A stretch of DNA of 64,000 nt. Source: a virus. The notes beneath the pieces are model-generated. The model did no database searches. It saw nothing but the letters and a program-made list of their open reading frames with translations, and had not been told where the DNA came from. This document shows, piece after piece, positions 6,189 through 63,675 of this stretch (position 1 is its first letter; every line of letters starts with the position of its first letter). The DNA lies in IMG/VR virus record IMGVR_UViG_3300049460_000128, positions 1 to 64,000 of that record; one strand, given 5' to 3'. The position numbers and the translations under genes were made by a program.

Positions 6189-6247
6189 ACAAGTGTCTCC
6201 TGTTATTTTCCACCAATATAGCATGATATGGTATTTAGAAGACAAAT

Positions 6248-6275
6248 AAAAAAGCCCGCCGAAGCGAGCTTTTTT
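6248..6275 (-). terminator. Terminator of the tmRNA operon
   Basis: GCTCGC-TTCG-GCGGGC stem flanked by A and T runs. It works for the leftward tmRNA transcript and could also act rightward. Confidence 0.85.
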
Positions 6276-6660
6276 GAGACTTGGATGATGAGGTATGTCT
6301 CTACCCCCACCGTTTAGGCTGCTACAGCCTGACGGAACGAAGAATCGTTTGCATTTACAACGTGCCGACTTTTATTTTCGTGAATCATCGACTTTCACGT
6401 GTTGTCATCTTCGGCTTATTCACCCTGTCGAAACCAGGTCAGGCCCATCATATAAGATTCTCTCGCTTACGTCTCGCGGGATACTGCGCTTTATCCTGAT
6501 AGTGGCCAGCGAAGTTTATCATGCGCTGCTGGTCTAACCTACCGAAAATCTATATGGTGGACCTGTGGGGAATCGAACCCCAGTCCAGAATGCCTCTACG
6601 TCCAAATCTGTCAGTTGCCTGACCACAACAATGTAATGCGCCTATCAGGCGGGGTAAGCC
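6270..6660 (-). ncRNA. ssrA: Circularly permuted (two-piece) tmRNA
   Basis: The tmRNA halves occur in reversed order on the leftward strand. First comes the acceptor piece: T-arm TGGGG-TTCGATT-CCCCA, acceptor strand CAGGTCC (6565-6559), A73 and an encoded CCA ending at 6555. After a 108-nt linker comes the mature 5' end GGGCCTG (6446-6440), which pairs with CAGGTCC over 7 bp (one G-U), followed by the tmRNA signature CCTGGTTTCGACAGGG. The tag frame GCA AAC GAT ... GCC TAA (6352-6314) encodes ANDSSFRQAVAA. The linker ends pair (ATATAGATT with AATCT-ATAT), as expected of a precursor cut to give two pieces. The upstream limit of the acceptor piece (here 6660) is uncertain. tmRNA with SmpB rescues stalled ribosomes and tags products for proteolysis. 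Confidence 0.9.
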
Positions 6661-6931
6661 CCGTCATCAATGCGTATTGGTTAGAATACGTTTCCCCTGT
6701 GACCGCTCGAAGTGTCACCCCTGTACTCAGTACCCTAACCAATAAACATTTGCAAAATCGTTTAAGCGTGAAGGGAGTCGAACCCTTGAGCGCCCTGCCG
6801 CTACGTTACCGTAGTGTCTGACTCGAACAGACCACTAGGCTCTCCATGCTCTAGTATGTACTCAACCGGGAGATGCCTACCACCCACTGGACCTAAACTT
6901 TTTGCTGGTGACACATTACTGCATCACCAAG
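6661..6931 (-). ncRNA. Structured leader RNA with T-loop hairpins, upstream of the tmRNA
   Basis: The first 270 nt of the tmRNA transcript carry GGTGA/TCACC, then GTCTG-TTCGAGT-CAGAC (6832-6816) and AAGGG-TTCGACT-CCCTT (6787-6771), two perfect T-arms with canonical T-loops. Next is a domain closed by TATTGGTTAG/CTAACCAATA. I could not draw a complete tRNA: the strand after the second T-arm (CACGCTT) has only an imperfect partner (GAGCATG, 6/7 pairs). It may be a degenerate tRNA, a tRNA-like decoy, or part of the tmRNA precursor. Confidence 0.5.
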
Positions 6932-6937
6932 ACCACA

Positions 6938-6965
6938 GTATATGGCAATCCATACATGCGGTCAA
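6938..6965 (-). promoter_or_regulatory. Sigma-70 promoter of the tmRNA operon
   Basis: TTGACC (6960-6965), 17-bp spacer, TATACT (6938-6943). Transcription should begin near 6931. No GTTCATTTGAAC palindrome in the spacer, unlike the protein-gene promoters. Confidence 0.85.
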
Positions 6966-6984: not shown

Positions 6985-7890
6985 TTAATTCATATGCGAA
7001 TAATCATCTGCCATATGAGTGCGCAGCTTCTTCAAAGCCGCCACCTCAATCTGACGAACACGTTCGCATGAAATATTGTACTTGTCTGCCATCGCCCGCA
7101 ACGGCACACCAGCCCCTTCATCATTTACCAGGAAACGTTGCTCGATGATATACTGCTCGCGTTCGTTCAACTTTTCCATGTACTTCTGGAGGCCGGTTGT
7201 CTGAAGTTCAACCATACGCATACTGGACAATACGTTGGTGGGTTCCAGCGTGTCGTCACTCAGATAATGGTATACGAAGTCATCCATATCAGCACTGTCA
7301 AGGAACTGATTGGTTGGAGGCACATCGATGGAGCTATCACCGCCACGCATACGCATTTCAACTTCACGCACGTCTTCTGGTCTGACCTCCAACGCATCAG
7401 CGGCCCATTTGATCTGTTCTTCGGTCATGCTGCGCCCTACTTCCAAACGACTACGCAGGTTGAAGAACAGCTTGCGATGAGCTTTGGTAGTGAAGCTTTT
7501 CACTATGCGAGAATTGCGAATCACATAGTCCATCATCTCTGCTTTGATCCAGGGAATCGCATAGGTGGCAAAACGCACATTCTGGGCGGGATCGAAGCGA
7601 TGAATTGCTTTCATCATTCCAATACTTCCTTCTTGAACTAGATCATCTTGGCTCATGCCGTAGAATTTCAATTGACGGGCTTGGCTCATGACCAAACGCA
7701 TATAGCTATGAGCCAGTGCGTCAATTGCCTTTTGATCATTGTTTCTCACTCGTACCCACAGCGCATCTTCTTGCGGCGGGGTAAGCATGGGAAACCGCAT
7801 GGCGGTGCTATGGTAATTGTCAATGCTGCTGAGGTTTACCGTAACACCAAGGTTCAATGGCTTATTAATACCAGTAGCGTCAAGTTTCAT
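6985..7890 (-). CDS. RpoH-like (sigma-32 type) RNA polymerase sigma factor
   Basis: A 301-residue sigma-70-family protein. Region 2 covers about residues 55-130 (DLVQEGSIGMMKAIHRFDP, RFATYAIPWIKAEMMDYVIRN). Residues 138-146, HRKLFFNLR, match the RpoH box diagnostic of heat-shock sigma factors of proteobacteria. Region 4.2 helix-turn-helix is at about 265-291 (ISCERVRQIEVAALKKLR). Length is close to E. coli RpoH (284). It would direct RNA polymerase to heat-shock-type promoters. It is transcribed from its own early promoter (7920-7948), and the RNA operon starts within 25 bp of its stop. It is not a gp55-type late factor, which is much shorter. Capture from a host rpoH is the likely origin. 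Confidence 0.9.
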   Translation of the reverse strand: MKLDATGINKPLNLGVTVNLSSIDNYHSTAMRFPMLTPPQEDALWVRVRNNDQKAIDALAHSYMRLVMSQARQLKFYGMSQDDLVQEGSIGMMKAIHRFDPAQNVRFATYAIPWIKAEMMDYVIRNSRIVKSFTTKAHRKLFFNLRSRLEVGRSMTEEQIKWAADALEVRPEDVREVEMRMRGGDSSIDVPPTNQFLDSADMDDFVYHYLSDDTLEPTNVLSSMRMVELQTTGLQKYMEKLNEREQYIIEQRFLVNDEGAGVPLRAMADKYNISCERVRQIEVAALKKLRTHMADDYSHMN

Positions 7891-12555: not shown

Positions 12556-12709
12556 TGGTGGCGAGAGGAGGGGTCGAACCTCCAATGTGCTACACATTGA
12601 CAAATATGCGTGCTCGAGGATCCGGATCCAATTGGCCGCCCTACACTCGTCAACTTAGAACACTCTCCAGCTCATCGGCTGGCGTATCTACCAATTCTAC
12701 TACCCCGCC
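12556..12709 (-). ncRNA. Leu-tRNA-like RNA with extra arm, encoded CCA
   Basis: 5' part is Leu-type: acceptor GGCGGGG, TA, D-stem GTA/TAC with loop GAATTGGTAGA, G26, CCAGC. 3' part: a long variable hairpin AATGTG-TAG-CACATT, T-arm GGAGG-TTCGACC-CCTCC, acceptor TCTCGCC (7 pairs, two G-U), A73, CCA. The anticodon arm closes on a 6-nt loop CGATGA (CCAGC/GCTGG), so no normal anticodon exists. About 60 extra nt follow it, closed by TTGAC/GTCAA. Length 154 nt versus about 87 for tRNA-Leu. Confidence 0.6.
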
Positions 12710-62091: not shown

Positions 62092-63675
62092 TCACATAAT
62101 TGCAAGAGGCATTGAGTCATCATCTTCTGGACTGACAATCTCTTTCAAGCTTTCGCTGTAATCTTCGTTAAGCCAACCAATAATAGCATCAAGAATACGT
62201 ACCACCAATAAGGTGGCTGAAATCAAATCATCATGTTCGCCACTCTTAGCCGCATAGCTGGCGCCGCTACTTACGAAGTTCTTGAATTGACGAATCAGTG
62301 ATTGACTGTTGACTTGCATACGGCCACTTTCCATCAATGATTTCAGCTTACTGCATGCACTCAGTTTCTTCGCATTGCTGGTGTTCAGACCCTTGCGGAA
62401 ACGACCACGACCCTGTCCAGCCACACGTTTTTCACTCACAAAGATACCTGGGAAGTTATGCTCACCCGTATCTTCAATGATTTGCAGTACAGCTTCGCCG
62501 ATACTGTTGTTTTCAACAGTCCAGAATATCTCAGGCTCTCCTTGTTGTTCTGGATTCTCCAGCAGACTTTGATTCAACATCAACAAGGTTTGCATGAGAA
62601 TTTTGATCTGCCCTCGTGGTGGAGTTTTGTTGTGCTGCCACTCAGCAACTTGAATCATTTCAGGTACTTGAAATACCTGAATAGCCGCATAGTCACCACC
62701 TGTACCCAAACATGGATCCAATCCCAACAGGAAGGTCTTATTTGGTTCAGGCTCGCAGAACCAACGTACTTGACCGGTATAGAATTCTGGTTCGCTGTAA
62801 CGCAGTTGCACCAATGTCAGAGCATCAATTAAGGTCTCGTCATCTGATACGAATTCGCATTCAAATTCCTGTTGGAATCGTGCGGCACCCAAACTGGCGC
62901 GGAATGGTGCAGCCCATGCTTCATCTCGATCTGGGTGACGATCCCACTTGACCTTGATAGGAAAGAAACCATTTGCACCTTCGCCATTTGGCAGCTGATT
63001 ACCAAATTCGTCAGTATTTTGATTTGCTCCACGCCAGATCTTAGCAAATTGGTCTTCGTCATTCTTTGGCGTTGATGTGATAATGCAGCCACCACCAGTA
63101 GCCAGAACAGGCTGAATAGCAGTCCAGAATTCGTTTGCCATACTTGGACGCACGAATGCAAACTCGTCGCAGTACAGAAGGGTAATGGACAGACCACGAC
63201 CAGCATCGGCGGTGGTTGCACGCGCAGTAATGGCCGAACCATTGTCGAATGAGATGGTACCTTTGTTGTACTCCATCACACCAGCTCGTAAATGGTTTGG
63301 GCATTCCTCGTAGCCGTATCGAATACGGTCCATAATCTCCATAGCCTGATTGAACTTATTAGCAGCAATCAGAATCTTGGTGTCTGGGACAAACATTGCA
63401 CGCCACAGCAGATATGCAGCAGCCACGGTAGTTTTACCCATTTGTCGTCCAGTCAATGATACACAGAAGCGATGATTGTGGTACGCTTCAATCATCTCGT
63501 GCTGGAATGGATACAACACGAGTGGAATAGAGCCCTTGATTGGGTGCTGAACTTTCAGGAAATTCTCGATGAAATAAAGTGGATCATCCAGGCATTTTTC
63601 CAGTTCTTCTCGTTGTGTTTTGGTGAAAGGAACCTTACTGTGTCCTTTCTTGGTGAGTTGATACTCGTTAGCCAT
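62092..63675 (-). CDS. Terminase large subunit, T4 gp17-like
   Basis: A 527-residue protein. ATPase domain: YPFQHEMIEAYHNHRF, Walker A SLTGRQMGKTTVAAAYLL at about residue 75, Walker B ITLLYCDEFAF, motif C TSTPKN. Nuclease domain of RNase H fold: LGLDPCLGTGGDY (first Asp), WTVENNSIG, and GEHDDLISATLL (last Asp). It powers DNA packaging and cuts the concatemer. T4 gp17 has 610 residues; the C-terminus is shorter here. Late promoter ACTAAATA at 63741-63748. Confidence 0.95.
   Translation of the reverse strand: MANEYQLTKKGHSKVPFTKTQREELEKCLDDPLYFIENFLKVQHPIKGSIPLVLYPFQHEMIEAYHNHRFCVSLTGRQMGKTTVAAAYLLWRAMFVPDTKILIAANKFNQAMEIMDRIRYGYEECPNHLRAGVMEYNKGTISFDNGSAITARATTADAGRGLSITLLYCDEFAFVRPSMANEFWTAIQPVLATGGGCIITSTPKNDEDQFAKIWRGANQNTDEFGNQLPNGEGANGFFPIKVKWDRHPDRDEAWAAPFRASLGAARFQQEFECEFVSDDETLIDALTLVQLRYSEPEFYTGQVRWFCEPEPNKTFLLGLDPCLGTGGDYAAIQVFQVPEMIQVAEWQHNKTPPRGQIKILMQTLLMLNQSLLENPEQQGEPEIFWTVENNSIGEAVLQIIEDTGEHNFPGIFVSEKRVAGQGRGRFRKGLNTSNAKKLSACSKLKSLMESGRMQVNSQSLIRQFKNFVSSGASYAAKSGEHDDLISATLLVVRILDAIIGWLNEDYSESLKEIVSPEDDDSMPLAIM

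Follow-up and report, generated by a model that had tools for sequence, protein, structure and literature searches.

A circularly permuted tmRNA gene and an smpB gene in one T4-like jumbo phage record, a probable phage-encoded trans-translation pair

A tmRNA-like locus in viral DNA raises the question whether it is a genuine gene of the phage and, if so, whether it would take part in the rescue of ribosomes or is a remnant captured from a host. The DNA analysed, hereafter called the window, comprises 64,000 nucleotides and is the beginning (bases 1-64000) of a viral record of 296,594 bases (G000). The terminase of G000 (62092-63675, minus strand) is T4-like and has 62 % identity with that of Sinorhizobium phage Phosso, which is the nearest isolate terminase, 55 % with that of Agrobacterium phage Atu_ph07 and 48 % with that of Pseudomonas phage PA5oct. 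Ribonucleotide reductase, helicase, primase and recombinase-like genes, identified from their translations, are also found in the window, and rIIA and rIIB are located in the same record beyond it. Judged from its sequence, G000 is a very large T4-like phage, i.e. a jumbo phage.

On the minus strand, ARAGORN called a permuted tmRNA at 6223-6647 with the tag ANDSSFRQAVAA, and the Rfam model RF04321 (tmRNA_permuted, gathering cut-off 47 bits), of which the base-pair model covers the tRNA-like domain alone (PMC11915505), gave a full-length match at 6314-6611 (93.5 bits, E 8e-17). The model RF01850 (beta_tmRNA, gathering cut-off 84 bits) matched at 6247-6645 with 87.6 bits, a small margin over its cut-off (E 5e-25). 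With these E-values, a chance match is excluded, and G000 carries a genuine circularly permuted (two-piece) tmRNA gene (Table 1). A preliminary description, made from the letters alone, had proposed a phage-encoded, circularly permuted tmRNA, and both the strong permuted-tmRNA score in the covariance search and the ARAGORN call, in a record whose terminase is T4-like and which also carries rIIA/rIIB and phage replication genes, bear this out. The extent given there, 6270-6660, departs slightly from the limits found here.

Table 1 Features of the tmRNA locus of G000, listed in the direction of the minus strand (positions in the window)
Feature	Position	Strand	Basis
Sigma-70-like promoter (putative), TTGACC-N17-TATACT, just past the stop codon of the sigma-factor gene	6937-6965	-	Consensus scan, 10/12 matches
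Putative leader, ~280 nt between promoter and acceptor piece	6650-6930	-	Hairpins, position
Acceptor piece (5' end approximate)	6555-6646	-	ARAGORN, Rfam, base positions
T arm of acceptor piece	6567-6581	-	Base positions
Acceptor 3' strand CAGGTCC (6559-6565) and ACCA (6555-6558)	6555-6565	-	Base positions
Intervening segment, 108 nt, which would be excised between the 3' CCA and the 5' end of the coding piece	6447-6554	-	Between the pieces in CM alignments
Coding (mRNA-like) piece (3' limit approximate, before terminator)	6276-6446	-	Rfam, cofold
5' end of coding piece, GGGCCTG, pairing with CAGGTCC	6440-6446	-	Base positions
Motif CCTGGTTTCGACAGGG	6423-6438	-	Inside coding piece
Tag frame GCA AAC GAT TCT TCG TTC CGT CAG GCT GTA GCA GCC TAA, encoding ANDSSFRQAVAA and stop	6314-6352	-	ARAGORN
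Intrinsic terminator AAAAAAGCTCGCTTCGGCGGGCTTTTTT, 12 pairs, loop of 4	6248-6275	-	Terminator scan

The order of the pieces is permuted, the ACCA lying ahead of the 5' end of the coding piece on the minus strand. All seven pairs of the split acceptor stem GGGCCTG/CAGGTCC form, G3-U70 among them, and cofolding of the acceptor and coding pieces gave the same 7-bp stem. The acceptor half with its CCA before the coding half, the 7-bp pairing, the signature motif and the tag ending in VAA with its stop codon, which the preliminary description had listed without assigning a strand, are all present. The intervening segment folded no better than shuffled sequences (z -0.61), and the terminator is also covered by the 3' hairpin of the beta_tmRNA model.

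In the order of its pieces, split 7-bp stem, G3-U70, T arm and CCA, as well as in its resume region UAAAUGCAAACGAU, tag ending in AA and 3' terminator, the gene resembles the betaproteobacterial two-piece tmRNA (RF01850/RF04321). It differs from cellular betaproteobacterial tmRNAs in being phage-borne, in its beta_tmRNA score (87.6 bits, compared with 323 bits for Dechloromonas and 164 bits for a Nitrosomonadales MAG, both of which have the permuted form), and in its 108-nt intervening segment and leader of about 280 nt. The occurrence of permuted tmRNAs in alphaproteobacteria, some betaproteobacteria and cyanobacteria, as stated earlier for this locus, agrees with the literature (PMC11915505). 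One-piece ssrA genes were present in those of the tested Oxalobacteraceae and Burkholderiaceae genomes in which a tmRNA was found (RF00023 scores of 209-224 bits in the genomes scanned), with tags such as ANDNSYALAA. Herbaspirillum sp. RV1423 (L202) and a Herminiimonas MAG (L203) have a second, permuted tmRNA (117 and 111 bits, respectively) besides the one-piece ssrA; the tags called for these, ANESQYLAFGT and ANDANYLVQVYG, lack a terminal AA.

Since the consensus scan for sigma-70-like promoters gave 3 sites compared with 2.0 expected in shuffled sequences, the promoter in Table 1 is assigned from its position only. The putative leader includes a region of about 140 nt with two T-loop-like hairpins (TTCGAGT at 6816-6832 and TTCGACT at 6771-6787), both with the geometry of a T arm (5 bp, 7-nt loops). 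Its part at 6655-6752 forms a long hairpin which folded better than shuffled sequences (z -3.28), whereas the part at 6752-6898 did not (z -0.69). An Rfam search with the leader gave nothing above cut-off, and an exact 23-mer taken from it was absent from IMG/VR. The idea that the leader consists of tRNA genes was rejected, as nothing was matched as tRNA even with a threshold of E 10 and ARAGORN made no call. The gene directly upstream of the tmRNA transcript, at 6985-7890 on the minus strand, encodes a phage sigma factor, assigned by NCBIfam to the RpoH/sigma-32 subfamily (267.8 bits, cut-off 241), with a clear phage homologue in Salicola phage SCTP-2; no relatives were found in IMG/VR when searched via this sigma factor.

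Further tRNA-like elements were observed in the record. A tRNA match with an encoded CCA (Rfam, 31.5 bits) is located at 12559-12709 on the minus strand of the window. Its variable region is enlarged by an insertion of about 80 nt, and its anticodon-type loop is of 6 nt; it was not called by ARAGORN, and no exact match to its 3' end was found in IMG/VR. Two adjacent tRNAs, each with the anticodon CAT, are found at G000:C1:255936-256089 (L022, 3937-4093, plus strand), and these were the only tRNAs above the Rfam cut-off in a search of the whole record, in which the odd tRNA at 12559-12709 was not listed.

The same record also contains a gene for SmpB, at 269,247-269,696 on the plus strand (G000:C1), with the purine-rich stretch AGAGGAAACC preceding its ATG. 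The predicted protein matched PF01668 with 185.8 bits and the NCBIfam SmpB equivalog model with 199.9 bits (cut-off 130), aligned over almost its entire length with SmpBs of solved structure and retains 50 of the 54 near-invariant columns of betaproteobacterial SmpBs, including an intact DKR motif. A C-terminal tail altered specifically in the phage (no Trp147, Ala-Met for Ile-Met) was considered and rejected, 48 of 80 betaproteobacterial SmpBs being without the Trp and 40 of 80 having Ala-Met.

In a tree of 51 SmpBs, the G000 protein was placed, on a long branch, among those of Massilia and Janthinobacterium (Oxalobacteraceae) with a support of 99/95, and the SmpBs of the records G005, G008, G009 and G010 formed a separate group (support 91/98); a single common origin of the phage SmpBs was not rejected (p-AU 0.39). 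Between G009 and G010, dN was 0.06 and dS 0.58-0.77, i.e. dN/dS about 0.07-0.10, and by this estimate the two proteins differ as proteins under purifying selection would. Most SmpB matches in IMG/VR are situated at contig ends and, because of this position, appear to be prophage edges beside bacterial ssrA and not phage genes. Three partial records with SmpB and no match to a permuted tmRNA (L031, L032 and L222) were excluded from the count of phage pairs.

A permuted tmRNA was found in five of the relatives identified by their terminase, namely G005, Phosso, G002, G035 and G037. G005, a viral record of 523,836 bases, has 69 % identity with G000 in its terminase and 65 % in its SmpB, and its permuted tmRNA (121 bits) has the tag ANDNVFAMAA. 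In G009 and G010, both partial phage records, T4-like primase and helicase genes (identified from translations) are found close to smpB, and permuted tmRNAs with the tags ANDNSFRMAA and ANDNSFRVAA are present. In G008 an SmpB gene is found in the same gene order, with no tmRNA match within its 18.8 kb. The permuted tmRNA of Phosso (L029, PV764938; 349596-350198, minus strand, 113 bits), with the tag ANDNVSTKVALAA read by hand, is absent from the annotation of this phage and was missed by ARAGORN; it is of the alpha type, has an intervening segment of about 410 nt and differs also in this respect from that of G000, and it is not accompanied by SmpB. The tags of G002 and G037 are ANASNDEVFALAA and ANDNTVEVALAA, and the frame in G035, read by hand, is VNDNEPAMAVAA. 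SmpB was not found in Phosso, G002, G035 or G037, some of which are fragments, so the tmRNA and SmpB are not always kept together. No permuted tmRNA was found in Atu_ph07, PA5oct and the 416,714-base record G038, all relatives by terminase, or in SCTP-2, a relative by the sigma factor. The permuted tmRNA is therefore dispensable, and common but not universal, in the terminase clade.

No DNA similarity of the G000 tmRNA with phage or plasmid records was found. The acceptor stems showed compensatory changes (GGGCCTG/CAGGTCC in G000, GGGCCCG/CGGGTCC in G005, GGGGCTG/CAGCTCC in Phosso and GGGGATG/CATCTCC in the Nitrosomonadales MAG), G3-U70 being constant across those compared, and the T stem also varies with its pairing kept. 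The tag frame, of which the conservation in related phages had been proposed as a check, is kept in G005, G009, G010, G002, G037 and Phosso; the tags of the relatives end in ALAA, AVAA, AMAA, RMAA or RVAA and vary in the middle. Two other viral contigs, L003 (3612-4056, plus strand) and L005 (2525-2969, minus strand), have a permuted tmRNA for which a tag of 28 residues (ANADTFDFSAMSFTGNSVSGKSKVALAA) was called.

Both components have been described from phages. In a survey from 2022, 53 of 133 phage tmRNA structures were suggested to be two-piece, those of the Methylophilales phage Melnitz and other marine phages among the two-piece forms described. Melnitz, a myophage without integrase, has a complete permuted ssrA; this is of the alphaproteobacterial type with a glutamine riboswitch, whereas that of G000 is of the beta type, in a jumbo phage which also encodes SmpB (PMC9004378). 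A tmRNA is also reported from Sinorhizobium phage AP-J-162 (PMC11242549). Huge phages with tmRNA and SmpB genes, e.g. Lak phages, were published in 2020, the form of the tmRNA not being stated in the parts of that publication consulted (PMC7162821). In the huge phages tested here (Lak-B5, Lak-A2, LR756504 and G032), SmpB was accompanied by a one-piece tmRNA match, in contrast to the permuted form in G000, G005, G009 and G010. In a literature search which covered few subscription papers, no description of a permuted tmRNA and SmpB in one phage was found. Two-piece tmRNA and SmpB are each already known from phages, and their combination is a new example, not a new type of system.

The anatomy of the gene, the covariation, the SmpB gene, and the co-occurrence and conservation of the two components in related phages were established by the analysis. 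It is concluded that G000 probably brings its own trans-translation pair, tmRNA and SmpB, which would keep ribosomes free during mRNA degradation. Ribosome rescue while mRNAs are being cut had been suggested for this locus before, and the phage smpB, which lies elsewhere in the record and outside the stretch then considered, strengthens the suggestion. Cutting of the precursor, charging with alanine via G3-U70, delivery with SmpB and EF-Tu, and degradation by ClpXP are established steps of trans-translation, and from these we infer transcription, processing, charging, tagging and a benefit to the phage. Transcription from the minus strand would give a precursor, which tRNA-processing enzymes of the host would split into an acceptor piece with a CCA end and a coding piece; helix 2 and the split acceptor stem of 7 bp would hold these together. 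Alanyl-tRNA synthetase would charge the acceptor via G3-U70, and the charged tmRNA with SmpB and EF-Tu would enter ribosomes stalled on truncated mRNA and add ANDSSFRQAVAA, directing the tagged protein to the host ClpXP. During the degradation of host and phage mRNAs, the phage may thus gain dependable free ribosomes and be rid of truncated proteins. Counting against such a rescue pair are the leader of about 280 nt, which is unexplained, the patchy presence of the tmRNA, not always with SmpB alongside, and a beta_tmRNA score just over the cut-off and far below the cellular scores of 323 and 164 bits.

The low score (87.6 bits, compared with 164-323 bits in bacteria), reflecting divergence outside the tRNA-like domain, and the patchy presence among relatives would also fit a captured host gene which is neutral or decaying and has no function. 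This is improbable, however, as every functional element is intact, the tag frame has been maintained in related phages, the acceptor stem (with compensatory changes) and G3-U70 have likewise been maintained in those checked, and SmpB is retained alongside, apparently under purifying selection in related phages. The tag has been considered as the main purpose of the phage tmRNA, which would then serve a different degradation of the tagged proteins, e.g. evasion of SspB or ClpXP, rather than rescue. ANDSSFRQAVAA is indeed unlike Oxalobacteraceae tags such as ANDNSYALAA, and the middles of the phage tags vary, but Caulobacter-type tags end in AVAA and the C-terminal AVAA of the G000 tag is of this usual kind, while the accompanying SmpB suggests the rescue reaction as a whole; a main role in altering the tag is accordingly given a slightly lower, small probability. 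The suggestion in the preliminary description that a changed tag alters ClpXP targeting found no support beyond the usual variation between tags, given the normal ANDxxF...AVAA shape of the tag and the endings in the relatives.

A DS6A-like molecule, with scarcely anything beyond the tRNA-like domain, inhibits tmRNA, perhaps by titration of SmpB (PMC4131195; PMC11915505), and, following the proposal made for DS6A, the G000 tmRNA could similarly act against trans-translation in the host, as a decoy or inhibitor which titrates the SmpB or alanyl-tRNA synthetase of the host. This is very improbable for a molecule which, unlike the tag-less DS6A, has a complete and conserved coding piece, including the resume signal and the tag with its stop codon, and whose phage has its own SmpB, which would defeat the titration. 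Finally, the contig might be chimeric and the tmRNA or SmpB bacterial, as could be supposed from the grouping of the G000 SmpB with Massilia and from the mostly bacterial SmpB matches in IMG/VR, which appear to result from prophages adjoining ssrA. The tmRNA nevertheless shares the 64-kb window with T4-like replication genes and terminase, smpB is about 12 kb from rIIA/rIIB in the same record, and the same pairing occurs in an independent viral record of 523,836 bases and in two phage fragments, making a chimera extremely unlikely.

A phage-encoded rescue pair might in addition be foreign to the host, a two-piece tmRNA with its own SmpB acting beside or replacing a one-piece host tmRNA, because the G000 SmpB groups with those of Oxalobacteraceae, whose own tmRNAs are one-piece; this is considered a rather doubtful extension. 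If the host belongs to the Oxalobacteraceae, the pair would be a second rescue system of another architecture, possibly resistant to defences attacking host RNAs. As to why phages carry tmRNA, the presence of the RNA and protein parts together in G000, G005 and two T4-like fragments argues for active rescue over a captured remnant. One-piece and two-piece tmRNAs are each paired with SmpB in huge phages, and the G000 pair supplies concrete sequences with which phage ribosome rescue can be tested.
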